Below, one piece after another: positions 14,135 to 52,426 of a stretch of 59,370 nucleotides of DNA. Positions within the stretch are counted from its first letter, which is position 1. Each line of letters opens with the position of its first letter. Origin of the DNA: an uncultured Clostridia bacterium. GTDB lineage: Bacteria > Bacillota > Clostridia > Oscillospirales > Ruminococcaceae. The translations under genes and the position numbers were made by a program. The notes beneath the pieces are model-generated. The model was given only the letters and a program-made list of their open reading frames with translations, had not been told where the DNA came from and made no database searches. Where the stretch lies: positions 1 to 59,370 of the forward strand of contig CANQYD010000010.1 in NCBI GenBank assembly GCA_947627985.1, read 5' to 3'.

Positions 14135-14219
14135 GGGCGAAGCCCCCCTCCGGCGGCTCCGCCGCCGGAGGCGACGCCCCTTCGGGGCGTCGGGTCGCGT
14201 TCGCGACCGGGCTTCGCCC
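14135..14219. repeat. nested palindrome element, copy A
   Basis: Outer arms GGGCGAAGCCC and GGGCTTCGCCC (complementary to each other) enclose three perfect hairpins: TCCGGCGGC with TCC loop, CGACGCCCC with TTC loop and GGTCGC with a 4-base GTTC loop. It lies just beyond the purL stop and before the his promoter, where it could act as a boundary, but no T-run follows. The gap 13985-14238 holds nothing else I recognise. Confidence 0.8.
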
Positions 14220-14238
14220 CAAGGAACCCTTCTGCACC

Positions 14239-17200
14239 TTACCTAAAGTACTCCGCCGCAGCCCTGAACATGCCGATGTCGTAGTTACCCGGCACGTTTT
14301 TGTATAGATCGGGCGCGTACCTCTCGGAGTGCCCCATCTTGCCGAAGACCCTGCCGTCGGGGGAGGTGATACCCTCGATCGCGCAGACGGAATCGTTCGG
14401 GTTGAAGCGGATATCCGAGGTCGGATTGCCGTCGAGATCGACATACTGCGTCGCCACCTGACCGTTCTCGATGAGCTTTTTGAGCAGATCGTCGCCGCAG
14501 ATAAATCTTCCCTCGCCGTGGGAGATCGGGACATTTACGACATCCCCGACGTTGACATTTTTGAGCCACGGCGATTTGTTGGAGACGATCTTTGTCCTGA
14601 CGATCCTCGACTGGTGCCGAGAAATGGTATTATATGTAAGCGTCGGGAAGGAGGGATCGCTGTCCAAAATCTCCCCGAACGGCACCAAACCGAGCTTTAT
14701 AAGCGCTTGGAAGCCGTTGCAGATGCCGCAGATAAGCCCGTCGCGATCATTTAATAGCTTCATGACCTCCTCGCGCACGGTCTTGTTCCTGAAGAATGCG
14801 CAGATGAATTTTGCGGAACCGTCCGGCTCGTCGCCTCCCGAGAACCCACCGGGAATGAAGATCATCTGCGAGCTCCGAAGGCTTTCCGCAAACTTCTCGA
14901 CGCTCTCGGAAATCCCTTGGGCGCTCAGGTTATTGATGACGATGATCTCCGGCTCTGCACCCGCGTCGCGCATCGCCTTGGCGCTGTCGTATTCGCAGTT
15001 GGTGCCGGGGAACGCAGGTATCAGAACCTTCGGTTTCGCGGTCCTGATCGCCGGGGAAGATGTATTTCTCCCGTCGTAGGAAATATTTTCAAGTTTCGTG
15101 CCGCCTTGCCTGATGTTGCAGCTGTAAACGCCTTCCAGCTTGTCCTCATAGATGCCTAAAAGCCCCTTAAGATCGAGCTTTTCGCCGTCATAGGATATCT
15201 CCGCCTCCGGCACCGTCTCGCCGATTTCGATAAGCCCTTCCTTATCGAAGCAGTTGCCGCATGCGCCGCAGGAAAGCTCCACCACAAATCCCCCGCACTT
15301 AAGATCAAAGAGCTCATTAAGCTTAAGCGCATTATTTAATTTCACGCCGATGGAGTTGCCGATAGACATCTTTAAGACCGCCTCGGCGACCCCACCCATG
15401 CAGGGGGTGTATGCCGAAATTATCTTCCCCTCGCGGATAAGTCTTGTAATTTTTTGGTATATTTTTATCAGCGACTCCGTCACCGGCAGCCCGTTTTCAT
15501 CATATTCCGGCTCGATGTACATCACCTTATGGTACGGCTCTTTGAACTCGGGGGAGATGACGTCGCCGGTCTTTCCGGTCGTGACCGCAAAGGAGACGAG
15601 GGTCGGGGGGACGTCCAAATCCTCAAAACTTCCGCTCATCGAATCCTTGCCGCCGATGGAGCCGATCCCGAGGTCGAGCTGAGCCCTGAAAGCGCCCAAA
15701 AGCGCCGCCAAAGGCTTGCCCCAGCGCTTGCCGTCGCGGTTCGGGTGCTCGAAATATTCTTGGAATGTAAGGTACACATCTTTAAACTCCGCGCCCGTCG
15801 CGATCAGTTTCGAGACCGACTCCACGACCGCGCAGTAAGCCCCATGATACGGGCTCTGCACTGCAAGATATGGGTTATACCCCCACGACATGAAGGAGCA
15901 GTTGTCGGTGTGTTTTTTCTCGACGGATATCTTCTGCACCATCGCCTGAATCGGGGTCAGCTGATTCTTCCCGCCGAACGGCATCAGCACCGTACCCGCA
16001 CCGATGGTCGAGTCAAAGCGCTCGGAAAGCCCGCGTTTTGAGCAGATATTGAGGTCTCCCGCCATCTTCTCCATATTTTCCTTGAAGCTTCCCGAGACGG
16101 TTCTCTTTTTGACATTCGGCTTTTCGGGAGTGATTTCGATATGTTTGTCCGCGCCGTTTGAATTCAAAAATTCCCGGCTCAGATCGACGATTTTCTTGCC
16201 GTTCCAGACCATCACAAGACGCGGCTCGCCCTGTACTTTCGCGACGGGACACGCCTGCAAATTCTCCTCATGCGAAAGCTCCAAAAATCTTTTGACATCT
16301 TCGGGAGCGACGACGACAGCCATTCTCTCCTGAGATTCGGAAATCGCGAGCTCCGTGCCGTCGAGCCCCTCATATTTCTTCGGAACCGCGTTCAGATCGA
16401 TTTCCAGCCCGTCCGCGAGCTCTCCGATTGCGACCGAAACGCCGCCCGCGCCGAAGTCGTTGCACCTTTTAATCAGCTTTGAAGCCTCGGCGTTTCTGAA
16501 CAGCCTCTGAAGTTTTCTCTCCTCGGGGGCATTTCCCTTCTGAACCTCTGCGCCGCAGGTCTCGACGGAATGAGCGTTGTGAGCTTTTGACGATCCCGTA
16601 GCCCCGCCTATGCCGTCTCTTCCGGTCGAGCCGCCTAAAAGTATCACGACGTCGCCCGGCTCGGGGACTTCACGTCTGACGTTTTCCTGCGGAGTTGCGG
16701 CGATGACGGCTCCGATCTCCATTCTCTTAGCCGCGTATCCCGGGTGATAAATCTCGTCTACAATACCCGTCGCGAGCCCGATCTGGTTGCCGTAGGAGGA
16801 ATAGCCCGCCGCAGCCGTCGTGACGATTTTTCTCTGGGGCAGCTTTCCGGGTATCGTCTCGGAGACCGGGACGGTCGGGTCGGCAGCTCCCGTTACCCTC
16901 ATCGCGCCGTAGACATAGCTTCTGCCGGACAGCGGGTCCCTGATAGCCCCGCCGATGCATGTAGCCGCGCCGCCGAACGGCTCGATCTCGGTCGGGTGGT
17001 TGTGGGTCTCGTTTTTAAAGAGGAGCAGCCACGGCTCTTTTTTGCCGTCCGCCTCGATTTCGATTTTGACGGTGCAGGCGTTGATCTCCTCCGACTCGTC
17101 GAGCTTCGGCAGCCTGCCGGTTTTCTTTAAATATTTCGCCGCGACGGTCGCGAGGTCCATAAGGCAAACAGGCTTTCTGTCGCCGATTTTTTCTCTGACC

Positions 17201-17949
17201 TCAAGATACTCCTCATAGGTTTTTTGAAGCAGCTGATCCTCGAATTTCACGCCGTCGATGACCGTTAAAAACGTCGTATGGCGGCAGTGATCCGACCAGT
17301 AGGTGTCGATCATTCTTATCTCGGTGACTGTCGGGTCGCGGTGTTCAGACCTAAAGTAGTTCTGACAGAATTCGATGTCGTCGGCGTCCATGGCGAGGTT
17401 ATAATCGCTGACGAATTTTTCCAGCTCCGCTCTGACAAGCTTTGTGAAGCCGTCGAGCGTCTTGACCTCGGTGGGTATCGCATAGTCGAGCTTAAGCGTT
17501 TCGGGCAGCTCGAGCGAAGCCTCCCTCGCTTCGACGGGGTTTATGACATATTTTTTGATCTCGGAAAGATCATTTTCGGACACGTTCCCGTAGACGCAGT
17601 ATACCTTTGCCGAGCGTATCAGCGGGCGTTCGCCCTGTGAGATTATCTGAATGCACTGCGCCGCGGAATCGGCTCTCTGATCAAACTGTCCGGGGAGATA
17701 CTCGACCGCAAAGACCTGCGCGTTTTCGTGTTCAAAATCGCTTGAGGCGATGTCAAGCTGCGGCTCCGAAAAGACGTTTTTTACGGAATATTCAAACAGC
17801 TCTTCCGAGATGTTTTCGGCGTCGTAGCGGTTTAAAATGCGGATATTTTCGACGCTCTCGAGCCCGAGCAGGTTTTTAAGATCGCCCAAAAGCGCCCTTG
17901 CCTCATGCGCAAGCTCCGGCTTTTTTTCAACGTATATCCTGTATACCAT
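14239..17949 (-). CDS. purL: phosphoribosylformylglycinamidine synthase, single chain
   Basis: Converts FGAR, glutamine and ATP to FGAM. 1236 residues fuse the synthetase and glutaminase that are separate PurL/PurQ/PurS proteins in Bacillus; this is the fused form found in many Clostridia. The synthetase part has NETHNHPTEIEPFGGAATC near 312; the C-terminal glutaminase has PGTNCEYDSAKAM near 985, nucleophile Cys in CGICNGFQALIKLG near 1074 and SHGEGRF near 1142. It is the last gene of the pur operon, one base after purD. Confidence 0.96.
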   Translation of the reverse strand: MVYRIYVEKKPELAHEARALLGDLKNLLGLESVENIRILNRYDAENISEELFEYSVKNVFSEPQLDIASSDFEHENAQVFAVEYLPGQFDQRADSAAQCIQIISQGERPLIRSAKVYCVYGNVSENDLSEIKKYVINPVEAREASLELPETLKLDYAIPTEVKTLDGFTKLVRAELEKFVSDYNLAMDADDIEFCQNYFRSEHRDPTVTEIRMIDTYWSDHCRHTTFLTVIDGVKFEDQLLQKTYEEYLEVREKIGDRKPVCLMDLATVAAKYLKKTGRLPKLDESEEINACTVKIEIEADGKKEPWLLLFKNETHNHPTEIEPFGGAATCIGGAIRDPLSGRSYVYGAMRVTGAADPTVPVSETIPGKLPQRKIVTTAAAGYSSYGNQIGLATGIVDEIYHPGYAAKRMEIGAVIAATPQENVRREVPEPGDVVILLGGSTGRDGIGGATGSSKAHNAHSVETCGAEVQKGNAPEERKLQRLFRNAEASKLIKRCNDFGAGGVSVAIGELADGLEIDLNAVPKKYEGLDGTELAISESQERMAVVVAPEDVKRFLELSHEENLQACPVAKVQGEPRLVMVWNGKKIVDLSREFLNSNGADKHIEITPEKPNVKKRTVSGSFKENMEKMAGDLNICSKRGLSERFDSTIGAGTVLMPFGGKNQLTPIQAMVQKISVEKKHTDNCSFMSWGYNPYLAVQSPYHGAYCAVVESVSKLIATGAEFKDVYLTFQEYFEHPNRDGKRWGKPLAALLGAFRAQLDLGIGSIGGKDSMSGSFEDLDVPPTLVSFAVTTGKTGDVISPEFKEPYHKVMYIEPEYDENGLPVTESLIKIYQKITRLIREGKIISAYTPCMGGVAEAVLKMSIGNSIGVKLNNALKLNELFDLKCGGFVVELSCGACGNCFDKEGLIEIGETVPEAEISYDGEKLDLKGLLGIYEDKLEGVYSCNIRQGGTKLENISYDGRNTSSPAIRTAKPKVLIPAFPGTNCEYDSAKAMRDAGAEPEIIVINNLSAQGISESVEKFAESLRSSQMIFIPGGFSGGDEPDGSAKFICAFFRNKTVREEVMKLLNDRDGLICGICNGFQALIKLGLVPFGEILDSDPSFPTLTYNTISRHQSRIVRTKIVSNKSPWLKNVNVGDVVNVPISHGEGRFICGDDLLKKLIENGQVATQYVDLDGNPTSDIRFNPNDSVCAIEGITSPDGRVFGKMGHSERYAPDLYKNVPGNYDIGMFRAAAEYFR

Positions 17950-17950
17950 T

Positions 17951-19222
17951 TTAGCCCTCCTTAAGCGCGTTGAGCGCCTTTTTTCCTATATCTTTCCTGT
18001 AATAGGCATTTTTGAAAGTGACCTTTTCTGCATATGTATATGCCGTCTTAACAGCCTCGCCGAGGTCTTTTCCCTTGCCGACGACCCCCAAGACCCTTCC
18101 GCCGTTTGAGAGAAGTTTACCGTTTTCAAGCTTTGCTCCCGCGACATATACCTTGTCCTTCAAATCCTCGGGAATCCTGATTTCAAAGCCCTTTTCATAC
18201 TTTTCGGGATAGCCGTCCGAAGCCAAAATCACGCAGCAAGCCGCGCCGTCCGAAAATTCCACGGGAACGTCCTTAAGCGTGCCGTTCGTGGTCGCGAGCA
18301 TAATGTCCAAAAGATCGGACTTGAGAAGCGGCAGGACGACCTGGGTCTCGGGGTCTCCGAAGCGGCAGTTATACTCGACGACCTTCGGTCCCTCGGGGGT
18401 TATCATCAGCCCGAAGTAGAGGCAGCCCTTAAACGGTCTGCCCTCGGCTTTCATCGCCTTGACCGTCGGGAGGATTATCCTTTCGAGCGCCTGTTTTTCG
18501 GCTTCTTTTGTATAATACGGCGACGGCGCGACCGTTCCCATTCCGCCGGTGTTCAAGCCTTCGTCGTTATCGCGGGCGCGCTTGTGATCTGTGGAAGAGA
18601 CCATCGGAATGACCGTCTCCCCGTCGGTAAAGGAAAGAACCGACACCTCGGGACCGCTCATATATTCCTCGACGACGATCTTATCGCCGCTTGCTCCGAA
18701 CTTTTTGTCCTGCATGATCTCTTTAACTGCGTTTACTGCTTCTTCGCGGGTCATGCAGACGAGCGCGCCCTTTCCGAGCGCCGGACCGTCAGCCTTGATG
18801 ACGGTCGGGATTTTGCAGGTTTTTACATATTCAAGAGCGCTCTCCGCGTCCTCAAAAACCTCGTAATCAGCCGTCGGAATACCGTATTTTTTCATGAAAT
18901 TCTTGGAAAAGACCTTCGACCCCTCGATTATCGCAGCCTTTTTATCTGGACCGAAGCAGGGGACGCCTATTTTATTCAGCTCGTCAACGCATCCCAAAAT
19001 AAGCGGATCGTCCTGAGCCACGACGGCAAAATCGATCCCCGTATTTTTGGCAAATTCTACAATTTTGGGAATATCCGTAGACCCGATCGCCACGCATTCC
19101 GCGTCGGCGGCAATACCTCCGTTGCCGGGAAGGCAGTATATCTTTTCGACAGTCGGATTCTCGCGAAGCTTTTTGATGATGGCGTGCTCGCGACCTCCGC
19201 CGCCTACGACCATGATGTTCAT
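17951..19222 (-). CDS. purD: phosphoribosylamine-glycine ligase
   Basis: ATP-grasp enzyme that joins phosphoribosylamine and glycine to GAR. 423 residues. N-terminal GGGGREHAIIKKL at 7-19, ATP-grasp loop VIKADGPALGKGALV near 143 and metal-binding CRFGDPETQVVLP near 285 are seen. A 78-bp gap separates it from glyA, which supplies glycine. The GTP-rich purine loop is standard in length. Confidence 0.96.
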   Translation of the reverse strand: MNIMVVGGGGREHAIIKKLRENPTVEKIYCLPGNGGIAADAECVAIGSTDIPKIVEFAKNTGIDFAVVAQDDPLILGCVDELNKIGVPCFGPDKKAAIIEGSKVFSKNFMKKYGIPTADYEVFEDAESALEYVKTCKIPTVIKADGPALGKGALVCMTREEAVNAVKEIMQDKKFGASGDKIVVEEYMSGPEVSVLSFTDGETVIPMVSSTDHKRARDNDEGLNTGGMGTVAPSPYYTKEAEKQALERIILPTVKAMKAEGRPFKGCLYFGLMITPEGPKVVEYNCRFGDPETQVVLPLLKSDLLDIMLATTNGTLKDVPVEFSDGAACCVILASDGYPEKYEKGFEIRIPEDLKDKVYVAGAKLENGKLLSNGGRVLGVVGKGKDLGEAVKTAYTYAEKVTFKNAYYRKDIGKKALNALKEG

Positions 19223-19300
19223 CTTTTAACCTCCATATGTCAGAAATAGGAAAGCAGACGCCAGATTGACTGAGGTCTGTTTTCCGAATTTCCGAAGATT

Positions 19301-20545
19301 TTAATAGCAGTCGCCGTAGATGGGGTACTTGGCGCAGAGGTCCAAAACTTCCTTGCAGACCCTGTCCTTATTGCCCTCGAAGTCGGTGACGATCTCATAG
19401 AGCCACTGCGCGATCTTTTCCATCTCGGGCTCCTTGAAGCCGCGTGAGGTCACGGCAGGAGTGCCGATCCTGATTCCGCTCGTGATGAACGGGCTCTGCG
19501 GGTCGTTCGGGACAGCGTTTTTGTTTGCGGTGATGTGGACCTCGTCAAGGTTGTGCTCAAGCTGCTTTCCGGTGATGCCGAAGTTCTGAAGATCAATGAG
19601 CATGAGATGGTTGTCGGTCCCTCCCGAGACGAGGTTGAAGCCCCGCTTCATCAGCTCCTCCGCAAGTTTAGCGGCGTTTTTCTTGATCTGCACCTGATAA
19701 TCCTTAAACTCCGGCGACAGCGCCTCCTTGAAGGAAACAGCCTTGGCGGCGATTATGTGCATAAGGGGACCTCCCTGAATGCCGGGGAAGATCGCCTTGT
19801 CGATGGCTTTTGCGTATTCCTCTTTGCAGAGGATCATTCCGCCTCTCGGACCTCTTAAGGTCTTGTGGGTGGTGGTGGTGACGACGTCGGCATAGGGCAC
19901 GGGATTTGGGTGAAGCCCGGCTGCGACGAGTCCCGCGATATGAGCCATATCCACCATAAGATAAGCCCCGACCTTCTTTGCAATCTGCGAGAACCTCTCG
20001 AAGTCGATCTCCCTCGGATATGCCGAAGCGCCCGCTAAAATCAGCTTGGGCTTGTTTTCTATCGCAAGCCGCTCGACTTCATCATAATCTATCCTTCCCG
20101 TTTCGGCAGACACGCCATAGGGGATTATCTTGAAATATTTTCCGGAGATGTTGACGGGGGAGCCGTGGGAGAGGTGTCCTCCGTGGGCTAACGACATCGA
20201 AAGAACGGTGTCGCCGGGCTGCAAGAGCGCGAAGAATACCGCAAGATTCGCCGATGCTCCGCTGTGAGGCTGGACGTTTGCATGTTCCGCACCGAAGAGC
20301 TTGCATGCGCGCTGTCTTGCGATCTCCTCGACCTCGTCGACGTATTGGCAGCCGCCGTAGTAGCGGTGTGCCGGGTAACCCTCGGCGTATTTATTTGTAA
20401 GAACCGTACCCGCAGCCAGAAGCACGCCTTTTGAGACGATATTTTCGGAGGCTATCAGCTCGATATTCTGCTGCTGACGCTTGAGCTCGCGATCGGTCGC
20501 GGCGAAAATTTCCTCATCATACTGCTTTAATTCCTTGAAATCCAT
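19301..20545 (-). CDS. glyA: serine hydroxymethyltransferase
   Basis: PLP enzyme making glycine and 5,10-methylene-THF from serine. Placed inside the pur operon it supplies glycine to PurD and one-carbon units for the two formyltransferase steps encoded alongside. 414 residues. The PLP lysine is in [16 protein letters not shown] near 226; [11 protein letters not shown] near 28 and [18 protein letters not shown] near 53 are family signatures. The start follows AAGGAGG closely, 18 bases after the previous gene. Confidence 0.96.
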
Positions 20546-20563
20546 AATTAACCTCCTTAAAAA

Positions 20564-21751
20564 TCAATGGTGGAAGAGCCTCATGCCGGTGAACGCCATG
20601 ACCATTTTGTACTTGTCTGCGGTCTCGATGACGATGTCGTCGCGTATCGATCCACCGGGCTCGGCGATGTAGCTGACGCCCGATCTCTTAGCCCGCTCGA
20701 TGTTGTCGTCAAACGGGAAGAAAGCGTCGGAACCGAGCGCCACGCCGGATATCGAGTCGAGATATTCCCTCGCTTCCTTGTCGGTAAGCGGCTCCGGCTT
20801 CTCGGTGAAGTATTTCTGCCAGATTCCGTCGGCGGTGACGTCCTCCTCGTTTTTGTTGATGTAGCCGTCGATGATGTTGTCGCGGTCGGGACGCTTGATC
20901 TCCGGCTTGAACGGCAGATTCAGGACCTTGTCGTGTTGTCTCAGGAACCATGTGTCGGCCTTTGTGCCGGCAAGACGGGTGCAGTGTATTCTCGACTGCT
21001 GACCCGCGCCCACGCCGATCGCCTGCCCGCCGTATGCGTAGCAGACCGAGTTGGACTGGGTGTATTTTAAGGTGATGAGCGCGATGATAAGGTCGCGCGC
21101 GGCTTCGTCGGGGAGCTTTTTGTTGTCGGTGACGATGTTTTTAAGAAGGTCGCGGTTGATTTTGAAATTATTCCTTCCCTGCTCGAAAGTGATCCCGTAG
21201 ACCTGCTTGCGCTCGATCTCTTCGGGGACGTAGTTCGGGTCGATTTGGAGGATTGGGTATGCGCCCTTTTTCTTTGATTTTAAGATTTCGAGGGCTTCCG
21301 GCTCGTAACCGGGCGCGATGATTCCGTCCGAAACTTCCCGCTTTATCATCTTCGCGGTGGTGACGTCGCAGATATCCGAAAGGGCGACCCAATCTCCGAA
21401 GGAACACATTCTGTCGGTGCCCCTTGCCCTTGCGTAAGCCATCGCGAGAGGGGAGTCGTCAAGCCCCTCGACGTCGTCGACGAAGCAGGCTTTTTTAAGC
21501 TTTTCGGGCAGCGGTATGCCTACCGCCGCGGAGGTCGGGGAGACGTGCTTGAAGGAGGTCACGGCGGGGAGCCCGAGGGCTTCCTTGAGCTCCTTGACAA
21601 GCTGCCAGGAGTTGAACGCGTCCAAAAGGTTGATGTATCCCGGCTTGCCGTTTAAAATCTCAAAGGGCAGGTCGCTTCCGTCCTGCATGAACACCCTTGA
21701 GGGCTTTTGATTCGGGTTGCAGCCGTATTTTAAAAGAACTTCGTTTGCCAT
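20564..21751 (-). CDS. purH: AICAR formyltransferase, stand-alone
   Basis: Transfers formyl from 10-formyl-THF to AICAR. 395 residues correspond to the C-terminal domain of bifunctional PurH; the N-terminal IMP cyclohydrolase domain is absent. The catalytic Lys-His pair is K68-H69 in TSFKHVSPTSAAVG, and QSNSVCYAYGGQAIGVGAGQ near 234 and GGSIRDDIV near 375 are family signatures. The cyclisation is instead provided by the next upstream gene, a PurO-type cyclohydrolase 13 bases away. The symbol is used for the formyltransferase function only. Confidence 0.9.
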   Translation of the reverse strand: MANEVLLKYGCNPNQKPSRVFMQDGSDLPFEILNGKPGYINLLDAFNSWQLVKELKEALGLPAVTSFKHVSPTSAAVGIPLPEKLKKACFVDDVEGLDDSPLAMAYARARGTDRMCSFGDWVALSDICDVTTAKMIKREVSDGIIAPGYEPEALEILKSKKKGAYPILQIDPNYVPEEIERKQVYGITFEQGRNNFKINRDLLKNIVTDNKKLPDEAARDLIIALITLKYTQSNSVCYAYGGQAIGVGAGQQSRIHCTRLAGTKADTWFLRQHDKVLNLPFKPEIKRPDRDNIIDGYINKNEEDVTADGIWQKYFTEKPEPLTDKEAREYLDSISGVALGSDAFFPFDDNIERAKRSGVSYIAEPGGSIRDDIVIETADKYKMVMAFTGMRLFHH

Positions 21752-21764
21752 GTTATACCTCCGC

Positions 21765-22478: not shown

Positions 22479-22551
22479 ATTTACCTCCTGCTTGCAAACG
22501 GCTTGATGAGGGTGTGTGCGCCCTTACGGGGCTCCTGCTGGAGGGAACCGT

Positions 22552-22639
22552 GGGCGAAGCCCGACCCGACCTTCGGTCGGGTCGACCCCCCGGCTCCGCC
22601 GGGGGGTCCGGTCCGCTTCGCGGACCGGGGGCTTCGCCC
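22552..22639. repeat. nested palindrome element, copy B, inside the pur operon
   Basis: Arms GGGCGAAGCCC and GGGCTTCGCCC enclose GACCCGAC/GTCGGGTC, GACCCCCCGGC/GCCGGGGGGTC and CGGTCCGC/GCGGACCG hairpins. It sits in the 178-bp gap between purN and purO, which are otherwise one transcription unit, and is the only copy inside an operon in this window. Confidence 0.8.
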
Positions 22640-22656
22640 CGAGCCCTGTCCGCGCT

Positions 22657-27793: not shown

Positions 27794-27878
27794 GGGCGAA
27801 GCCCGGCACGCTTCGCGTGCCCTCTGAAGACTTCGTCTTCGGAGCAGCCGATCCTTCGGATCGGCTGGGGCTTCGCCC
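27794..27878. repeat. nested palindrome element, copy C
   Basis: Arms GGGCGAAGCCC and GGGCTTCGCCC enclose hairpins GGCACGC/GCGTGCC, CTCTGAAGAC/GTCTTCGGAG and CAGCCGATCC/GGATCGGCTG, each with a TTC loop. It stands between the end of the pyr operon (pyrI stop at 27905) and the pur promoter. Confidence 0.8.
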
Positions 27879-27904: not shown

Positions 27905-28321
27905 TCACTCAGCCTTGGTATCGCAGTAGGCGCACCTATACACTCTCTTCTCCGGGTCATCGAGCCGGAAGATGTGCTTCAGCTCCTGCTCCGTGGAGGT
28001 TATGCACCTCGGGTTTTTGCACTTTATCACGTCGATAAGCGTCTCGGGCAGCTCTATCGACTTCTTCTCGATCAGCTTCCCGCCTTTGATGATGTTTACG
28101 GTGACGTTCGGGGCGATGTATCCGATGATGTCAAAGCTCACCGGAATGTCGGCGTCGATCTTGATTATGTCCTTCCTGCCCATCTGCGAGCTGACGGCGT
28201 TTTTGATGATCGCCACGGGACAGTCAAGCTTATCCAGACCCAGCAGCTCATATAGCTTCATTCCCCGACCTGCGGGAATGTGGTCGATAACGGTGCCGTT
28301 CTTGATGGAATCAATATTCAT
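27905..28321 (-). CDS. pyrI: aspartate carbamoyltransferase regulatory chain
   Basis: Binds nucleotide effectors and assembles with PyrB trimers. 138 residues: N-terminal effector-binding domain with HIPAGRGMKLYELLGL near 14, and a C-terminal zinc domain whose four cysteines are C101, C106, C130 and C133 (CKNPRC and CAYC). Last gene of the pyr operon. Its presence means the ATCase is likely allosteric, unlike the PyrB-only enzyme of Bacillus. Confidence 0.93.
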   Translation of the reverse strand: MNIDSIKNGTVIDHIPAGRGMKLYELLGLDKLDCPVAIIKNAVSSQMGRKDIIKIDADIPVSFDIIGYIAPNVTVNIIKGGKLIEKKSIELPETLIDVIKCKNPRCITSTEQELKHIFRLDDPEKRVYRCAYCDTKAE

Positions 28322-33787: not shown

Positions 33788-33863
33788 AGGGCGAAGCCCG
33801 TGCGACGAAGTCGCACCGACGGCGGAGCCGTCGCGTCGAGCTGAAGCTCGACGGGGCTTCGCC
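33788..33863 (+). repeat. nested palindrome element, copy D
   Basis: Arms GGGCGAAGCCC and GGGCTTCGCCC enclose three hairpins: GTGCGAC-GAA-GTCGCAC, CGACGGC-GGA-GCCGTCG and a CGTCGAGC stem. Preceded by GAGTGCA, like copies A, G and I. Confidence 0.85.
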
Positions 33864-34088
33864 CGGGGTCCCTGCGGTTGCACAGAAGGCAGAGGGCAGA
33901 GATCAGAAGTCAGATTCTGTAGTTTGAGCCTATCAGCGTTGTATTTTTGCTTTGTAAAGCATAGGGTGGGCGCTAGGTCGTAGCTTTTGCAATTCTGCGT
34001 TAAATCGCAACAAGGTAGGGGAAGAAGGTATGGTGCTTGCCGTGGGTTGCTGTTTCTAAGATAGGTTAGTGAAAGGTGGGGGAGAGCA

Positions 34089-34164
34089 GGGCGAAGCCCG
34101 TGCGACGAAGTCGCACCGACGGCGGAGCCGTCGCGTCGAGCTAAAGCTCGACGGGGCTTCGCCC
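34089..34164 (+). repeat. nested palindrome element, copy E
   Basis: Same length and same three hairpins in the same order as copy D 301 bp away; the only difference I see is one base in the loop of the third hairpin (TGAA against TAAA). Confidence 0.85.
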
Positions 34165-34364: not shown

Positions 34365-34450
34365 GGCGAAGCCCGACCGCGTGCAAGCACGCGGTCCCTG
34401 CCTCCGCTTCGCTCCGGCAGCCGGCGACTTCGTCGCCGGGGGCTTCGCCC
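34365..34450. repeat. nested palindrome element, copy F
   Basis: Arms GGCGAAGCCC and GGGCTTCGCC enclose GACCGCGTGC/GCACGCGGTC, an imperfect CTGCC...GGCAG hairpin and CCGGCGAC-TTC-GTCGCCGG. The last contains the recurring GCGAC/GTCGC core. Confidence 0.75.
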
Positions 34451-36023: not shown

Positions 36024-36308
36024 TAGAAAAGGCGGAAGATAAATTTCACCCGCCTTTATGCGGCACGCCCGAGCGAAAGGCGGAAGAGAGAATTCAGAAG
36101 GGCAGAATCTGCGCCTATTCTAAGTCGGGACAAGTCAAAAAGGTTTTGCCCCGGGAGTGTACAAATCGCCCTCATTATCCTCGCTAATTAAATCTGTCAC
36201 CACCGGTGACGCCTTGAAATTCTGACAATCCGACTTCTGACTTCTGTCCTCTTGATGCGGTCGTTTTGACCACATCTTTTGCCCCGTCCCCTTGACGGCA
36301 TATCCAAA

Positions 36309-40619: not shown

Positions 40620-41040
40620 GATCAAGCCCTTTTTAAAGGGCTTGCGGGGTCGAGGGGCGGCGCCCCTCGTCGCCCGTCGCAACGGGCGAAATCCCCGCAA
40701 AAAGGACAGTGAAAGCTGTCCTTTTTGCTTTTAGCGTTCAAAGAGGGCGACGAAGTCGCCCGAAGCCGGAGGGGTGTGGGGAACCGTGCAACGGTGCCCC
40801 ACATCAGAAAGGGGCTTGGGGGAAGCCCTTGAAAAGGGTTCCCCCAACAAAAAACCGGCGACGAAGTCGCCAGGAGCCGGAGGGGTGTCAGCAGAAGCCG
40901 GTTTTGTTACCAATCGCACTTCGCAATCGTAAACGCAGGATTGCTCGTGCTTTTGGACAAAACCCCGCGTCTGCGGGAACCGTGCAACGGTGCCCCACAG
41001 AGCCGAGCGAAGCGAGGCATAATCAGCAGAAAGTTTTCTG
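40620..41040. repeat. hairpin-rich intergenic array
   Basis: No gene is supported. Consecutive hairpins: AAGCCCTTT/AAAGGGCTT near 40625, GAGGGGC/GCCCCTC near 40652, CGCCCGT/ACGGGCG near 40670, a 13-bp stem at 40697-40728, GGGCGAC/GTCGCCC near 40746, GTGGGG..CCCCAC around ACCGT/ACGGT near 40776-40802, and a GGGGGAA/TTCCCCC stem near 40818-40845. Bases 40841-40870 repeat 5541-5570 exactly. Confidence 0.75.
40896..40970 (+). repeat. 75-bp element with GGTTTTG/CAAAACC ends, copy 2
   Basis: Begins AGCCGGTTTTGTT and ends GGACAAAACCCCGCGT, the same length as the copy at 5288-5362. The core CGCAATCGTAAACG is kept but the inverted part differs (CAGGATTG against ATTGATTG). Confidence 0.78.
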
Positions 41041-41236: not shown

Positions 41237-41313
41237 GGGCGAAGCCCCGCTGCCGCAGGCAGCGCGCCGACGCTCCGCGTCGGCGGTGCGACTTCGTCGC
41301 ACGGGCTTCGCCC
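41237..41313 (-). repeat. nested palindrome element, copy G
   Basis: Arms GGGCGAAGCCC and GGGCTTCGCCC enclose GCTGCC-GCA-GGCAGC, a CGCCGACGC stem and GTGCGAC-TTC-GTCGCAC. Read on the minus strand it has the same three hairpins in the same order as copy H at 52004-52080. The surrounding 41090-41470 holds no supported gene. Confidence 0.85.
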
Positions 41314-42933: not shown

Positions 42934-42951
42934 AAATTATTTGCAGACCTC

Positions 42952-42980: not shown

Positions 42981-43061
42981 GGGGGTTGTTAAAATTTCGT
43001 GTCTGATTCGTGGCTGCAAAAAATAAAAGCCCCTAAATATGGGCTTACGAGCATTTGTCGT

Positions 43062-43591: not shown

Positions 43592-43619
43592 GTCCTGCCC
43601 CGCATTTTGCGGTCTCTAT

Positions 43620-43648
43620 ATTCTATCACAACCTTCCGCGTTTGTCAA
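43620..43648 (-). promoter_or_regulatory. tRNA-Val promoter
   Basis: Minus strand TTGACA (43643-43648), 17-base spacer, TAGAAT (43620-43625). Its -35 box faces the -35 box of the opposite promoter with two bases between them. Confidence 0.8.
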
Positions 43649-43650
43649 GG

Positions 43651-43679
43651 TTGACAATCAAAAAAGTTTTCGCTATAAT
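43651..43679 (+). promoter_or_regulatory. promoter of the membrane protein-tgt-mntP-HAD operon
   Basis: Fully consensus TTGACA (43651-43656), 17-base spacer, TATAAT (43674-43679), then GGGAGGTGG before the ATG at 43705. Confidence 0.88.
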
Positions 43680-43704
43680 GTCTTTAATACCGGGAGGTGG
43701 GATC

Positions 43705-45206
<1,502 letters not shown>

Positions 45207-45215
45207 GAGAGGAAA

Positions 45216-45785: not shown

Positions 45786-45796
45786 CGGAGGATATC

Positions 45797-46465
45797 ATGT
45801 CTTTGGTGATTTTTGATCTTGACGGCACGGTTTTAGATACTTTGGACGATCTCACAGCTGCCGTAAATGCGGCGCTTTCGGCGACGGATTTTCCGAAGAG
45901 GACCCGGGAGGAAGTTAAGAATTTTGTCGGAAACGGGGTGCCGAAGCTTATTGAGCGGGCGCTTCCCGAGGGATATAAATCCCCCGAAAATACCGAAAAA
46001 GTGCTTAAACTGTTTAATGAAAATTACGCCGTTCACTATGCCGACGCCACCCGACCTTTTGACGGCATGACGGAGCTTTTGTCGCGCTTAAAATCCCGGA
46101 AAATAAAGCTTGCGATGTTTTCAAACAAGCCCGATGTCTTTACCAATGATCTTGCCGAAAAATTCTGTCCCGGCGCGTTTGATCTTGTCCTCGGGAGCAG
46201 GGAAGGCTTCCCGAAAAAGCCCGACCCCGCGGGGGAGAGATACATAATGGACAAGCTTAATTCTTCACCTGACCGCACCCTTCACGTCGGCGATTCCGAT
46301 ACCGACGTTTATACCGCGCATAACGCCGGAGTGCGGGCTTTGGGCGTCAGCTGGGGATACAGATCGCGGGAAAGCATACTTAAAGCCGGGGCATGCGATA
46401 TCGCCGACAATGTAAAAGAGCTTGAAGATAAAATTTTGCGCCTTTGCTTGACAAGCGGGGAGTAA
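45797..46465 (+). CDS. HAD-family phosphatase, phosphoglycolate phosphatase-like
   Basis: 222 residues. HAD motif I DLDGTVLDT with D7 and D9, motif II FSNKPD near 113, motif III lysine in PKKPDPAGE near 138 and motif IV GDSDTDVYTAHNAG near 167. The cap domain between motifs I and II is the C1 type of Gph/PGMB-like enzymes. The substrate is not certain. An in-frame ATG 15 bases earlier is possible. The pheST promoter lies inside its last codons. Confidence 0.85.
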   Translation: MSLVIFDLDGTVLDTLDDLTAAVNAALSATDFPKRTREEVKNFVGNGVPKLIERALPEGYKSPENTEKVLKLFNENYAVHYADATRPFDGMTELLSRLKSRKIKLAMFSNKPDVFTNDLAEKFCPGAFDLVLGSREGFPKKPDPAGERYIMDKLNSSPDRTLHVGDSDTDVYTAHNAGVRALGVSWGYRSRESILKAGACDIADNVKELEDKILRLCLTSGE

Positions 46466-46476
46466 TGTGATAAAAT
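46448..46476 (+). promoter_or_regulatory. pheST promoter, inside the HAD gene end
   Basis: TTGACA (46448-46453), 17-base spacer, TAAAAT (46471-46476). The -35 box overlaps the last coding bases of the HAD gene; start expected near 46483, immediately before the T-box. Confidence 0.85.
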
Positions 46477-46489
46477 ATCATTTTAGTAA

Positions 46490-46722
46490 ACGCAGCGACG
46501 GAGAGAGTAGGTCGGAAAGAGCTCCACAGAGAGGGGACGGCGCTGGGAAGTCCCCGGGCAAAGACGGCTGAAGTTCACTCCCGAGCGGCTCCGCTGAAAT
46601 CATCTGACTGTAGGCGGGGACGGAAGCGCGCCGTTATCGCGCAGGGAGTGTCTGCTCCTTTGAAAATGGGTGGTTTATAAGCATACGAAAGAGTATGTCC
46701 CGTTTTTGCGGGGCATTTTTAT
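46490..46722 (+). promoter_or_regulatory. T-box riboswitch, phenylalanine specific
   Basis: Leader RNA that senses uncharged tRNA-Phe. The 5' part has the stem I features GAGAGAGTAG and the specifier region CTGAAGTTCACTC, where TTC is a Phe codon. The T-box proper ATGGGTGGTTTATAAG lies at about 46666-46681; its TGGT can pair with the ACCA end of tRNA-Phe. CCCGTTTTTGCGGGG with a following T-run at about 46699-46720 is the terminator. Position before pheS agrees with the specifier. Confidence 0.9.
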
Positions 46723-46749
46723 TTAATTAAATGAAAGGATGAAAAGAAA

Positions 46750-47769
46750 ATGAAGCAGGCTTTAGAGCGGATCGAGCAGGCGGCAAAAAAAGAGCTGTCC
46801 GAGATTCGCGATTCAAAGGAGCTCGAGGCTCTGAGAATAAAGTTTCTGGGAAAAAAAGGCGATCTCTCGGCTATCATGAAGGACATGGCTAAGCTGTCGG
46901 CTGAGGAGAGACCGGTGATCGGTCAGATCGCAAACAAGGTGAGGACGGATATCTCCGAGGCGATCGAAAAGCGCGCCGAGGAGTTAAAAGCCGCGGCGTC
47001 GGAGCTTAAACTCAAAGAAGAGCGCCTTGACGTCACATTACCCGGCAGGGCTCCCAAGCTCGGCAAGCTCCATCCCCTTGACTCCGTCATGCGCGAGATC
47101 GAGGATATCTTCATCGGCATGGGCTTTGACATCGCCTCCGGTCCCGAGGTCGAGTATGATTATTATAATTTCGAGGCATTGAATCTTCCCCCCGACCACC
47201 CGGCGAGGGACACTCAGGACACGTTTTACATCTCCGACAAAATTCTCCTCCGGACCCAGACGTCGCCCATTCAGGTCAGGGTCATGGAGAAGAAAAAGCC
47301 CCCGATCCGCATAGTCGCGCCGGGAAGAGTTTACCGTTCCGACGCCGTCGACGCGACCCACAGCCCGCTTTTCCATCAGATCGAAGGGCTTGTTGTAGAT
47401 AAGGGGATCACGATGACCGATCTCGTCGGAATCTCAAAGATGTTTATAGAGAGGCTGTACGGCGAGAACCTGAAGATCCGCTTAAGACCCCATCACTTCC
47501 CCTTCACCGAACCCTCCGCGGAGGTGGATATGGAGTGCTTCAACTGCGGCGGCAAGGGCTGTTCAATGTGCAAGGGCGAGGGATATATCGAGCTCTGGGG
47601 CTCGGGAATGGTCCACCCGAAGGTCTTAAGAAACTGCGGTATCGATCCCGAGGAATACTCCGGATTTGCCTTCGGAATGGGTCTTGAGAGGCTTGTAATG
47701 CGTAAATACGGCATTACGGATTTGAGACTTCTCTACGAGAACGACCTCAGATTCCTTGAGCAGTTCTGA
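46750..47769 (+). CDS. pheS: phenylalanyl-tRNA synthetase alpha chain
   Basis: Catalytic subunit of the (alpha-beta)2 enzyme. 339 residues. N-terminal coiled coil for tRNA binding (about 1-90); class II motif region RVYRSDAVDATHSPLFHQIEG near 196, a CFNCGGKGCSMCKG cysteine cluster near 258 and motif 3 GFAFGMGLERLVM near 305. AAAGGATG precedes the ATG. Eighteen bases before pheT. Confidence 0.97.
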   Translation: MKQALERIEQAAKKELSEIRDSKELEALRIKFLGKKGDLSAIMKDMAKLSAEERPVIGQIANKVRTDISEAIEKRAEELKAAASELKLKEERLDVTLPGRAPKLGKLHPLDSVMREIEDIFIGMGFDIASGPEVEYDYYNFEALNLPPDHPARDTQDTFYISDKILLRTQTSPIQVRVMEKKKPPIRIVAPGRVYRSDAVDATHSPLFHQIEGLVVDKGITMTDLVGISKMFIERLYGENLKIRLRPHHFPFTEPSAEVDMECFNCGGKGCSMCKGEGYIELWGSGMVHPKVLRNCGIDPEEYSGFAFGMGLERLVMRKYGITDLRLLYENDLRFLEQF

Positions 47770-47786
47770 GAAAGGGGGAAATTATA

Positions 47787-50177
47787 ATGGATTTATCAGT
47801 TAAATGGCTTAAAGATTATGTCGATAGAGATTACGATATCAAAAAGCTCTGCTACGACCTGACGATGACCGGTTCCAAAGTCGAAGGCTACGAGACGGAA
47901 GGCGAAAATATCAAAAACGTCGTCGTGGGAAAGCTTCTGTCCGTCGTTCCGCATGAAAATTCCGATCACTTGGTCGTCTGTCAAGTCGACGTCGGAAAGG
48001 GAGAGCCGATACAGATCGTGACGGGCGCTCAGAATGTAAAAGCGGGAGATATCGTCCCCGTGGCTCTGGACGGTTCCGACCTCCCGGGCGGCGTGCATAT
48101 CAAAAAAGGCAAGCTAAGAGGCGTCGAATCAAACGGCATGCTCTGCTCTTTGGGCGAGCTGGGTCTTACCAAGCACGACTTCCCGTACGCGATCGAGGAC
48201 GGCATTTTCATCTTGCAGGAGGATTGCAAGATCGGTCAGGACATTCAGAGCGCGATAGGACTAAATGATACATCGATCGAGTTTGAGATCACTTCCAACC
48301 GACCCGACTGCCTTTCGGTCATCGGTCTTGCCCGGGAGACCGCAGCTACCTACGGCATGAAGTTTGAGGAGCCGAATCCTCAGTATAAAGGCGTAGATGG
48401 AGACATCACCGAAAAGATCAACGTCGTCATCGAAAACGAAAAGCTTTGCAGGCGCTATATCGGAGGATATGTTAAAAACGTCAGGATCGGTCCTTCCCCG
48501 AGATGGCTTAGGGAAAGGCTTCGCGCCTCCGGCGTCAGACCGATAAATAATCTTGTCGATATCACAAACTACGTCATGCTCGAGTACGGTCAGCCCATGC
48601 ATGCCTTCGACGCGAGATTTATAAAAGGCAACGAAATACACGTCAGAAACGCGAGGGAAGGCGAGAGCATCACCACCCTTGACGGCACCGTCAGGGAGCT
48701 TTCGCCCGAGATGCTCGTCATCGCCGACGCCGAAAAGCCGGTGGCGGTCGCGGGAGTGATGGGCGGCGAGTATTCCGGGATCATGGACGACACCGTAGAC
48801 GTCATCTTCGAGTCGGCTTCCTTCGACGGCGCGTCCGTCCGCAGGACCGCCAGAAAGCTCGGCATGCGAACCGACAGCTCGGCAAGATTTGAAAAGGGAC
48901 TTGACCCGAGATTATGTGAGCCCGCCATTTTAAGAGCGTTCGAGCTGGTCGAGATGTTAGACTGCGGAGAGGTCCTGAATACCAAGATCGACCGCTTCCC
49001 GAATCCTCCTAAAAACGGCGAGGTCGATTTCACACCCGACTGGATCAACCGCTTCTTGGGCACCGATATCCCGGCTGAGAAGATGGTCGAATACCTTGAA
49101 AGGATCGGATTTAAGGTAAATAATGGGAAAATCAGCGTGCCCTATTACCGTATCGATATCGAGAGCAAGGCTGATATCGCCGAGGAAGTCGCGAGATTTT
49201 ACGGCTACAACAATCTTGAGGGCACCGACCTTAGAGGCGTAGCCAACGCAAAACTCACGCCGGCGCAGGTACTGACAAGAAAGCTTGAGTCGGCATGCAC
49301 CGCTTTGGGGCTTTACGAGATCGAGACCTTCAGCTTCATCTCGCCGAAATATTACGACAAGATCAACCTGCCCGAGAATTCGAGCCTTAGAAACAGTGTG
49401 AAAATTCTCAACCCCCTCGGCGAGGACACCTCCGTCATGAGAACGACGGTGCTGCCTTCGATGTGCGAGGTTTTGGCAAGAAATTACAATTATCGCAACC
49501 CCGAGGCGAAGCTCTTTGAGCTGGGCAGCGAATATATCCCGACCGTTGAAGGAAGCCTTCCCGAGGAGCCGCAGCGCCTTGCCATCGGCGTTTACGGCGG
49601 TGAATCCGACTTCTACAGCGTCAAGGGAATCGTCGAGAGCATCTTTGAAGCGCTTAATATTTGCGATGTTGATTACGCGAGAGCCGAGGGCGACTGCGGT
49701 TTTGGAGAGACGGCGATGTTCCACCCCGGAAGGTCGGCTGTAGCTTCGGTCGACGGCAAAAATATCGCGATCTTCGGCGAGATCCATCCCGATGTTCTGG
49801 AAAATTACGGTATCGGCACCAAGGCATACGCGGCGAAGATCAACGTGAGCGAGCTTTTGGAAATTATTCCCGCCGAGAAGACCTACAAGCCGCTGCCGAA
49901 ATTCCCCGCGGCGACGAGGGATATTTCGATGATCTGCGACGACGAAACGCCTGTGGCGACGCTCGAAAAGCTCATCAAGACCGCCGTCGGACCGATCCTT
50001 GAGAAGCTCAGCCTGTTCGACGTTTACAAGGGCGAGCAGATCGCGGAGGGTAAAAAATCGGTCGCGTTCTCGCTTGTCATGCGCTCGAAGGACGCCACCC
50101 TGACCGACGACCAAGCCGACGCCGCGATGAAGCGGGTCAGGAAGGCGCTGGGAGGAACAGGCGTGGAGGTGAGGTAG
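47787..50177 (+). CDS. pheT: phenylalanyl-tRNA synthetase beta chain
   Basis: 796 residues, standard length. The N-terminal EMAP-like tRNA-binding domain (about 40-150) has NVKAGDIVPVALDGS; the B3/B4 editing domain follows (about 215-370), then B5 (about 400-475), the inactive class II core and the C-terminal FDX-ACB anticodon-binding domain (about 700-795, FPAATRDISMICDD). AAAGGGGG precedes the ATG. Terminator behind it. Confidence 0.97.
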   Translation: MDLSVKWLKDYVDRDYDIKKLCYDLTMTGSKVEGYETEGENIKNVVVGKLLSVVPHENSDHLVVCQVDVGKGEPIQIVTGAQNVKAGDIVPVALDGSDLPGGVHIKKGKLRGVESNGMLCSLGELGLTKHDFPYAIEDGIFILQEDCKIGQDIQSAIGLNDTSIEFEITSNRPDCLSVIGLARETAATYGMKFEEPNPQYKGVDGDITEKINVVIENEKLCRRYIGGYVKNVRIGPSPRWLRERLRASGVRPINNLVDITNYVMLEYGQPMHAFDARFIKGNEIHVRNAREGESITTLDGTVRELSPEMLVIADAEKPVAVAGVMGGEYSGIMDDTVDVIFESASFDGASVRRTARKLGMRTDSSARFEKGLDPRLCEPAILRAFELVEMLDCGEVLNTKIDRFPNPPKNGEVDFTPDWINRFLGTDIPAEKMVEYLERIGFKVNNGKISVPYYRIDIESKADIAEEVARFYGYNNLEGTDLRGVANAKLTPAQVLTRKLESACTALGLYEIETFSFISPKYYDKINLPENSSLRNSVKILNPLGEDTSVMRTTVLPSMCEVLARNYNYRNPEAKLFELGSEYIPTVEGSLPEEPQRLAIGVYGGESDFYSVKGIVESIFEALNICDVDYARAEGDCGFGETAMFHPGRSAVASVDGKNIAIFGEIHPDVLENYGIGTKAYAAKINVSELLEIIPAEKTYKPLPKFPAATRDISMICDDETPVATLEKLIKTAVGPILEKLSLFDVYKGEQIAEGKKSVAFSLVMRSKDATLTDDQADAAMKRVRKALGGTGVEVR

Positions 50178-50206
50178 GAAGACCTGCCTGCCTGAGTAAA
50201 TAATTA

Positions 50207-50240
50207 TCCCGTCACCGGAGCGCGGTGGCGGGATTTTTGT
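50207..50240 (+). terminator. pheST terminator
   Basis: Stem CCCGTCACCG with CGGTGGCGGG around GAGCG, then ATTTTTGTG. One G-T pair in the stem. Confidence 0.8.
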
Positions 50241-50284
50241 GATATTTATCATAAGCCGGCGGGCTTTCAATCATGCTTGCAGTT

Positions 50285-50938
50285 TCATCTTCTTCCCCGC
50301 AGTGACATGAAACACCGGCGCTGTCTCTCCCATCTCAAACTGCCGCACCGGCGGTACCCGCGGTTCACGATGCCTTCGATTTCATCGAGCAGGTCGATGC
50401 TTTTCAGCACGGCTTGGAGGCAGCGATTTTCGGAACCCTCGCCTTCCGAAGCCTCGGGGAGGAGCAGGTAATGGACGTCCCAATTCGGCTCGGGGTGCTT
50501 AATCACGCGGATATTTTCGTCGCGATATACGACCTCGCCGGGCTGTCTGCCGTCATAATCATTAACCGATTTATGATTTGTGAACATATGGAAATGCACC
50601 TGACCGACTTCCTGACGGGGCCCTCCGTTGGCAATAAGTGTAAAATTTTCCCGAAATTTGGGATTATTCACGCTGATCTCGTCAGCCGCCGACAAAATCG
50701 CCGGGAAATAGCCGAAAAATTTCTCCTCGGACAGCTCCCGTAGGCTTTTTATCGCCCTTTTCGGGGTGATGATCAGGTGGCTTTGATACGACGGCTTCGG
50801 GTGGTAAAACGCGATGATTTCGCGGTTTTGCAGCACTTTTTTCACCGGAATCACCGGGCTGCAGAACCGAAACGCCGTGCCCACGACTCCGCCCATGAGC
50901 GGGCTTTTTGCGATCTTGAAAAGCAGTTCTTTTACCAT
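50285..50938 (-). CDS. HIT-family protein with Gln in the first triad position
   Basis: 217 residues, likely a nucleotide hydrolase or transferase. The HIT core is FYHPKPSYQSHLIITPKRAI near 44-63 and the triad region RQEVGQVHFHMF near 108-119. The usual H-x-H-x-H reads Q113-x-H115-x-H117, keeping the middle (nucleophile) and last His. GalT-branch enzymes also vary the triad, so activity is plausible. GGAGG precedes the ATG. Lies downstream of tatD on the same strand after 133 bp. Confidence 0.8.
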   Translation of the reverse strand: MVKELLFKIAKSPLMGGVVGTAFRFCSPVIPVKKVLQNREIIAFYHPKPSYQSHLIITPKRAIKSLRELSEEKFFGYFPAILSAADEISVNNPKFRENFTLIANGGPRQEVGQVHFHMFTNHKSVNDYDGRQPGEVVYRDENIRVIKHPEPNWDVHYLLLPEASEGEGSENRCLQAVLKSIDLLDEIEGIVNRGYRRCGSLRWERQRRCFMSLRGRR

Positions 50939-51071
50939 TTTGTTCCTCCAGTGTGCCCGTTGAAATAAAAATTGTCCTCTTATGCGATATATGATTTTCC
51001 GAAATTTACGCCGAAAATGCATAACTTGATTTAATATCATAGGCTGGGGGCGGGATACATTATCTTTAAAA

Positions 51072-51848
51072 TCAGCCGTCGATACCGAAAAGGCGCTTGG
51101 CGTTTTGCTCAGCGGCGGCGGCAAGATCATCCGGATCGATACCCCGAATCTCAGCCGCTCGGGCAGCAGTCATCAAAATCATCGAACTGTCGGAGCGCCG
51201 CCCCCGGAACGGCTCGGGCGCCATGTAGGGGCAATCGGTCTCCAGAACCAGCCGGTCGAGCGGCATTTTTTGCGCGACTTCGACCGCTTTTTTTGCGTTT
51301 TTGAAGGTCAGCGCGCCGGTGAAGCCGATGTAAAATCCCAGCCCGAGCAGCTCGCGGGCGCTCTCCCACGACCCCGAAAAGCAGTGCATGACGCCTTTCG
51401 GGCGCTTTTCGCGCAGGATTTGCAGGCAGTCGCCGACGGCGTCGCGGCAGTGGACGATGACCGGCAGCCCGAGCTCGTTTGCGATGTCTATTTGCTTTCG
51501 GAAGATGTCGGTCTGCGCGCCTCTGTCGAAGCCTTCGTAGTGGTAGTCGAGCCCGATTTCACCTATCGCGACGACTTTTTTCGATGATTTTGCGAGGGCG
51601 CGGACCTCATAAAGATCGTCTTCGCAGGTTCGTTCCGCAGAATCGGGGTGGATTCCCGCGGCTGCGTAATATTTTTCAAATTTCCGGGAGATTTCGAGCC
51701 CGAAGCGGGTGGAATCGAGGTCGGTGGCGGCGTGAACGATCCCGGAAATTCCGCGGGAGAAGAGGGAGGCGATCAGCTCATACCGGTCCGGGTCGAACTT
51801 GGGGTCGTCGTAGTGGGAGTGGGTGTCGAAGATGTGAGTGAGGGGCAT
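51072..51848 (-). CDS. tatD: TatD-family metal-dependent deoxyribonuclease
   Basis: 258 residues from ATG 51848, which follows AAAGGA; the open frame extends upstream into repeat sequence and that part is rejected. Metal ligands are in FDTHSHYDD near 6-14, GEIGLDYHYE near 103, VIVHCRDA near 137, MHCFSG near 165 and ETDCPYMAP near 214. A cytoplasmic 3'-5' DNase of the YabD/TatD type. Next to the HIT gene. Confidence 0.93.
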   Translation of the reverse strand: MPLTHIFDTHSHYDDPKFDPDRYELIASLFSRGISGIVHAATDLDSTRFGLEISRKFEKYYAAAGIHPDSAERTCEDDLYEVRALAKSSKKVVAIGEIGLDYHYEGFDRGAQTDIFRKQIDIANELGLPVIVHCRDAVGDCLQILREKRPKGVMHCFSGSWESARELLGLGFYIGFTGALTFKNAKKAVEVAQKMPLDRLVLETDCPYMAPEPFRGRRSDSSMILMTAARAAEIRGIDPDDLAAAAEQNAKRLFGIDG

Positions 51849-52003
51849 GGCGGGGGGTCCTTTCTTTATTATTTTTGGGGTATGGCGGGCAAGGGCTGGG
51901 CTTGTGCCAAGGTGCGATGAGGAGGAGCAGGTGCGGGAGGCAAGCTTGGAGCTTGCCGAGGGTGCAGCTTCTAAAAGGGCTGGCGGGTGGTGTGAGGGGT
52001 GCC

Positions 52004-52080
52004 GGGCGAAGCCCGTGCGACGAAGTCGCACCGCCGACGCTTCGCGTCGGCGCGCTGCCTGCGGCAGCGGGGCTTCGCCC
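52004..52080 (+). repeat. nested palindrome element, copy H
   Basis: Arms GGGCGAAGCCC and GGGCTTCGCCC enclose GTGCGAC-GAA-GTCGCAC, CGCCGACGC-TTC-GCGTCGGCG and CGCTGCC-TGC-GGCAGCG. Its reverse complement is copy G. Its first hairpin is shared with copies D and E, the other two are not. Confidence 0.85.
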
Positions 52081-52347
52081 CAAACCTTCAGCTCCTATCA
52101 AGGTTCGGTAGCGGCACCAAGCCCGGTGCAAAGGCTTGCATACAGCACCAAGATTTGACAGAAGCAGGGAGTGACTGCTACTTTTATGCTCTCTGCCCCT
52201 TATTTTCACTTTTGTAAAGCATAGGGTGGGTGCAAGGCTGAGACTTGTACCAAGGTGTGCTGAGGAGAAGCAAGTGCGAAAGGCAGGTTTGGAGCTTGCC
52301 GAAGCTGTAGCTTCTGAGAGGGTTTGCGGGAGGTATGAGGGAGTGCA

Positions 52348-52426
52348 GGGCGAAGCCCCCGGCACCGAAGGTGCCGGCTTCCTCCGCGAAGCCCGCCCGC
52401 GCGCAAGCGCGCGGGCGGGCTTCGCC
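52348..52426 (+). repeat. nested palindrome element, copy I
   Basis: Arms GGGCGAAGCCC and GGGCTTCGCC enclose CCGGCACC-GAA-GGTGCCGG and a very long stem GCCCGCCCGCGCGC with a 2-base AA loop. Between them lies unpaired CTTCCTCCGCGAA, so one hairpin of the usual three seems degenerate. Confidence 0.75.

Follow-up and report, generated by a model that had tools for sequence, protein, structure and literature searches.

In integron attC sites the fold is conserved while the sequence is variable. Among repeated elements of bacterial genomes, REPINs are doublets of REP sequences that form hairpins, as part of the text of PMC3116915 describes. The same part of that text states that the length and folding capacity of the REPIN spacer outweigh its letters, that compensatory changes occur, and that the elements are extragenic and in some cases lie in tandem clusters.

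Here we describe a family of intergenic elements, designated cloverleafs, in which two conserved inverted arms enclose three adjacent hairpins. The predicted fold persists although most of the letters differ between copies, which suggests that it is a shape rather than a sequence that is kept and spread.

Results

The window analyzed is a stretch of 59,370 nucleotides and constitutes contig 10 of the host genome (2.16 Mb in 72 contigs), which belongs to a Clostridia bacterium of the gut. An earlier note on this DNA had listed nine copies of the element. All nine were found in their places, with one coordinate amended from 33788 to 33789. In an intact copy, three adjacent hairpins stand between an 11-base arm, GGGCGAAGCCC, and its complement. 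The proposal that the outer arms are complementary and that each can form a mini-hairpin of its own holds for GGGC-GAA-GCCC and its complement. Seven of the nine copies (those beginning at 14135, 22552, 27794, 33789, 34089, 41237 and 52004) possess the full 11 bases of each arm together with exactly three hairpins. The copy at positions 14135–14219, with loops TCC, TTC and GTTC on the plus strand, lies 19 nt past the stop codon of the minus-strand gene purL, before hisS. The copy at 22552–22639 resides in an operon, 17 nt past the stop codon of a formyltransferase/acetyltransferase gene, and that at 27794–27878 lies 26 nt past the stop codon of pyrI, upstream of purE. The copies at 33789–33864 (76 bp) and 34089–34164 form a tandem pair with 300-bp spacing and flanks in common; their cores differ by one loop base. 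The copy at 41237–41313 is oriented opposite to the one at 52004–52080 (an 86-nt inverted repeat, 94%), which carries the commonest stem set, GTGCGAC/CGCCGAC/CGCTGCC.

The other two copies are worn. At 34365–34449 the 5′ arm retains 10 of 11 bases and the middle hairpin is imperfect. At 52348–52426, which lies 344 bp from its partner at 52004, the middle hairpin is partly deleted, the 3′ arm retains 10 of 11 bases and the predicted minimum-energy fold has lost the cloverleaf. Three inner hairpins are thus the rule, in place of the two or three of the earlier description. A search of the window with Rfam 15 at gathering score returned tRNA and pemK RNA only and no match at any cloverleaf copy. 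The pemK RNA match (59137–59194, minus strand; 52.3 bits against a cut-off of 34.8) adjoins a second intergenic repeat family, whose units of 52–76 nt are 79–91% alike and occupy 5213–5570, 36097–36153, 40819–40970 and 59206–59281. By eye, a stretch resembling this second family sits after an IS200-type gene in record L026.

Across the genome the exact-arm pattern matched 189 times, whereas its reversed-pattern control matched 0 times. A strict cloverleaf scan of three shuffles of the window found none, and neither did a tolerant scan of 956 kb of shuffled sequence from relatives. Detailed analysis covered the window and 20 further stretches (457 kb), which were picked for listed copies so that density in this sample is biased upwards. 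The sample contains 52 exact copies, each with three inner hairpins and each with its arms in the order GAA then TTC (52, with counts of 0, 0 and 0 in the remaining orders). None of the 52 overlaps a gene called by a simple purpose-written caller, at a coding density of 69%, which agrees with the earlier statement that copies are confined to gaps. Together, the high copy number, extragenic position, palindromic make-up and inverted arms support the REP-like nature that had been proposed. The commonest exact stem set accounts for 13 of the 52 copies in the host genome, and further near variants exist. Many copies belong to arrays of repeats that are separated from any called gene by hundreds of bases. 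Where copies stand in tandem at a spacing of ~285 bp, purine-rich CAGAGG/CAGAAG-like tracts flank them on one side (L028–L047, beside many copies). The T-run reported absent was indeed so, as none of the 104 flanking sides contains at least six T in eight bases, and an intrinsic terminator (hairpin plus T-run) was rejected on that count.

A non-circular test of the fold used copies chosen by their arms alone, of which only the interior was folded and duplicate sequences were dropped. Three hairpins formed in 46 of 46 distinct exact-arm copies of the host, compared with 119 of 1,840 shuffles, and in 70 of 72 distinct exact-arm copies from related records, for which the shuffle figure of 216 in 3,000 was made on a slightly larger set of 75; shuffles thus yield three hairpins about 7% of the time. 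Only L023 and L080 deviate among the related copies, with two hairpins each. These results support the predicted cloverleaf folding of the earlier note. Pairing is retained as the inner sequence changes. A tolerant scan that required stems and specified no loop or arm letters yielded 145 distinct cloverleafs (46 from the host, 99 from relatives), with three hairpins in 140, four in one and five in four. In 16 of the 145 the arms fail a GGCGNAGCC-like test; one of these 16, from a non-clade genome, is probably due to chance. Lengthening of the closing stem by the flanks was also considered and rejected. The predicted folds of 43 of 52 copies include at least six flank-flank pairs, and the duplex between flanks of the same copy (−24.3 kcal/mol) compares with −28.3 for flanks of different copies and −21.3 for shuffled ones. 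Since same-copy flanks pair no better than different-copy flanks, we read flank pairing as a matter of composition.

The clearest of the new results concerns the loops. As a DNA mini-hairpin, C(GNA)G is known for unusual stability; work by Hirao and by Yoshizawa reportedly dealt with such GNA structures, for instance d(GCGAAGC). In the 145 cloverleafs of the tolerant scan, GNA or its complement TNC makes up 331 of 377 triloops, and the loop-closing pair is C-G in 411 of 444 hairpins. Loops that depart from GAA at one position do so at the middle base in 148 cases, at the first base in 16 and at the third in none. Among hairpins of at least seven pairs in the examined stretches, GNA/TNC loops occur in 112 of 130 inside cloverleafs versus 31 of 343 outside them. 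A preference for one loop form on the sense strand, hinted at by the first window copies, was absent from the 26 copies that lie between co-directional genes (GNA 33, TNC 34; p = 1.0) and was rejected. Because the choice of loop is strong yet blind to the transcribed strand, a fold of the DNA, as opposed to a loop in RNA, or a process acting on either strand, is indicated.

The family follows a group of genomes that encode a stand-alone PyrI. This clade comprises 14 genomes (the host and 13 relatives), and the other 17 genomes of the genus served as comparison. Arms in the wider clade take the form GGC-GNA-GCC. The wider arm pattern GGCGNAGCC matched 4 to 215 times in all 14 clade genomes, with 0 to 2 matches for reversed controls. 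In the comparison set it matched four times in G026, four times in G002 and twice in G029; among the matches listed, those of G026 include three-hairpin ones and those of G002 and G029 look otherwise. Several genomes (G015, G010 and G007) possess recurrent inner stems of their own. In an order-wide sample, arm matches occurred in 4 of 295 genomes; three of these, the host included, belong to the same genus and the fourth does not look cloverleaf-like. Contig samples of at most 20 kb from relatives contained no cloverleaf in 20 loci. Among the matches listed at non-clade loci there were 28 distinct exact-arm elements, of which 27 were folded (one containing N was skipped) and two formed three hairpins: L056, from a rumen Ruminococcaceae, and L077, from a Chloroflexaceae and with weak stems. 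None of the four viral exact-arm matches among those listed is a cloverleaf.

Record L056 harbors two three-hairpin cloverleafs, at 1205–1284 and 4958–5045, one of which has GGGGCGAAGCC-type arms and A/T-richer stems. They are possibly distant kin of the family. PyrI itself (window positions 27905–28321; L153–L182) splits the genus in two. It is stand-alone in 14 genomes, gives a weak C-terminal match in 16 and is not matched in one. The match in the 16 genomes sits inside an open frame of ~362–374 residues, perhaps a fusion.

Comparison of individual sites among relatives revealed differing histories. The spacer that holds the copy at 22552 measures 178 bp in the host; in the relatives (10 of 10) it is 1–26 bp long and always free of a cloverleaf. 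A copy downstream of ilvD is found in the host only and is absent from 13 of 13 relatives, in which an ATG follows within about 15 nt of the stop codon. By this comparison, both are lineage-specific gains inside operons, although the relatives' spacers have diverged too far for the ends of the inserts to be delimited. The copy between pyrI and purE (27794) was found in none of nine relatives that have both genes; G015 bears its own copy after pyrI. Between purL and hisS (14135), two of eight relatives, G004 and G028, also have cloverleafs, with unrelated stems. Between oadB and oadA, a copy starts 41 to 45 nt past the stop codon in the host, G018, G004 and G028 (3 of 12 clade relatives); the relatives' stems are unrelated to those of the host, and the junction is bare and short in six relatives and filled by other DNA in three. 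Such occupancy of one spacer by unrelated stems, as at oadB-oadA and purL-hisS, is compatible with an ancestral copy that turns over fast as well as with repeated insertion.

The ilvC-ilvD spacer contains elements in 6 of 13 relatives. Stems are recognizably related in the host, G018, G022, G016, G020 and G010, and G015 has a different element. Since these species are scattered over the clade on a three-protein tree, in which several nodes are weak (down to 29%), the copy is probably old. Among species the middle stem exhibits symmetrical lengthening and the first loop reads GGA, GGA, GAA, TCC, AAA and GAA; in the host the entire element is reverse-complemented in place. The phoU-phoB copy is common to six species with the same stems, except at the pair that closes the third hairpin's loop in the host. 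Variation is found in the loops and junctions; G028 has GAA as its first loop and the others have TTC. Between the host and those species phoU DNA is 90–93% identical, compared with 80–85% for ilvD and oadB and 75–80% for pyrI. The higher identity of phoU suggests a probable recent exchange of this locus among species. A locus with pst-like, phoU and phoB-like genes occurs in L037 (12699–18375) and in L234–L238. Hybrid hairpins that combine two half-hairpins were seen by eye. From the differences in site and subfamily, we infer that the element has spread.

Discussion

We lean, with little more than even confidence, toward the view that cloverleafs are REPIN-like interspersed DNA elements whose fold is a substrate for a putative trans factor and/or for template switching and recombination, and whose survivors at gene ends are tolerated or useful. 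In DNA that is single-stranded during replication or negatively supercoiled, pairing of the arms would complete a four-way junction, with GNA mini-hairpins of great stability as its remaining three limbs. The folded DNA could then be acted upon by the putative trans factor and/or undergo hairpin-directed template switching and recombination. Action on the fold would allow copies to spread and to be repaired without a fixed inner sequence. Survivors would often be located past stop codons because a folded transcript may be tolerated or useful there, as for REPs. It is tempting to go further and speculate that the cloverleaf is a mobile element whose heritable, selected information is the DNA fold itself, a four-way cloverleaf in which either strand may carry the GNA triloops, spread by a putative structure-specific system distinct from both REP transposases and integron integrases. 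We entertain this stronger version tentatively.

A different reading, which we consider rather unlikely, holds that the elements are cis-acting RNA structures selected at gene ends, either as intercistronic mRNA stabilizers or as terminators that lack T residues, and that their DNA form is irrelevant. Of the 26 copies between co-directional genes, 12 are found no more than 80 nt past the upstream stop codon, 18 are nearer that stop than the downstream start (p = 0.076) and none is within 72 nt of a called downstream start, such starts being approximate. This placement makes the earlier suggestion of an mRNA end protector plausible for the 3′ end. Relatives without the cloverleaf have another stable predicted hairpin between purL and hisS in all six cases tested (z of −3.4 to −5.4) and between ilvC and ilvD in four of six (z of −3.7 or below; −1.1 and −2.4 in the others; G017 was left out). 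These predicted substitutes would fit an exchangeable mRNA structure, and the retention of the phoU-phoB stems in six species, apart from the one loop-closing pair in the host, while loops and junctions vary also favors selection on RNA. However, GNA loops display no sense-strand preference (33 to 34), many copies lie in repeat arrays far from called genes, T-runs are absent (0 of 104 sides), and the relatives' spacers at 22552 and downstream of ilvD are too short for such a structure.

Somewhat less probable still is the proposition that cloverleafs are passive palindromes, made and perfected by hairpin-directed template switching and devoid of a selected function or dedicated mobilizer. Loop flips, symmetrical lengthening of stems, half-hairpin hybrids and inversion of a whole element are the traces that template switching would be expected to leave. 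That process alone does not explain the near-fixed number of three hairpins, the arm sequence common to 14 species or the new copies in bare operon junctions.

The host genome encodes two nearly alike Y1 proteins, and the elements might be non-autonomous substrates of this resident IS200-type transposase, a notion we regard as very improbable. The Y1 protein that was scanned passed the IS200 TnpA model (144.7 bits against a cut-off of 55) and failed the REP-transposase model (32.7 against 80); the earlier conjecture of a REP-associated transposase is not supported. The two near-identical IS200 TnpA-like genes speak for the resident IS200-type enzyme, as does the recognition of secondary structures at element ends by IS200-family enzymes described in part of the text of PMC6006769. 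Against it, a Y1 match is missing from 7 of the 13 clade relatives bearing the element, although for two of the seven the assembly reaches a completeness of only 76% and 86%, and the loci of 3.4 and 2.6 kb that surround the Y1 genes contain no cloverleaf. A reverse transcriptase match is missing from 8 of the 13, some of the assemblies being incomplete. Neither a REP-type transposase nor a reverse transcriptase tracks the element across the clade, and both were rejected as a common mobilizer. An integron integrase, searched for in the host genome only, was likewise rejected (best 44.7 bits against a cut-off of 265). Finally, chance palindromes of G+C-rich intergenic DNA are a negligible explanation: in other phyla the core of three hairpins is mostly missing from exact-arm matches, which means that arms alone can arise otherwise, but the reversed-pattern control of 0 and the shuffled-sequence controls are contrary.

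Many independent cloverleafs share one loop chemistry (C-GNA-G) that is blind to strand, which makes it possible to tell unusually cleanly whether selection acts on a fold of DNA or of RNA. If the favored REPIN-like elements are mobile, they would represent REPIN-like spread without the transposase thought necessary for it. Filled and empty sites in otherwise intact operons make an effect on expression directly testable.

Cloverleafs resemble integron attC sites in the conservation of a fold over variable sequence and differ in that the host genome has no integron integrase above the cut-off. They share with GNA mini-hairpins the C(GNA)G motif, present in the arms and in most of the hairpins; GNA mini-hairpins are known as a chemical motif, and no repeat family built from that motif surfaced in a literature search of titles and abstract starts, none of which describes a cloverleaf family. 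The families of stem-loop sequences described for 40 bacterial genomes (PMC2267715) are likewise a systematic class of repeated intergenic stem-loops, but the part of that text used here lacks the words "cloverleaf" and "three stem" and does not name the host lineage. GTAG/CGTC-tagged REPs, as described in part of the text of PMC3733652, are palindromic repeats of high copy number that include dimers and clusters, as cloverleafs are; unlike them, cloverleafs are untagged within 12 nt at all 104 sides (within 20 nt, GTAG occurs at 13 sides and CGTC at none). The likeness to REPINs extends to two conserved inverted arms around a folding spacer, pairing kept while sequence changes, extragenic location and some tandem clusters. 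In contrast to REPINs, the cloverleaf spacer consists of three adjacent, mostly GNA-capped hairpins and the arms close a four-way junction; the GTAG/CGTC tag beside the arms is missing, and a REP-associated transposase was not found in the host genome. We call the family a new cloverleaf variant of REP-like elements, REPIN-like in its working, with the REPIN hallmarks of tag and transposase missing. Its novelty lies in a cloverleaf of three hairpins whose GNA loops are blind to strand.
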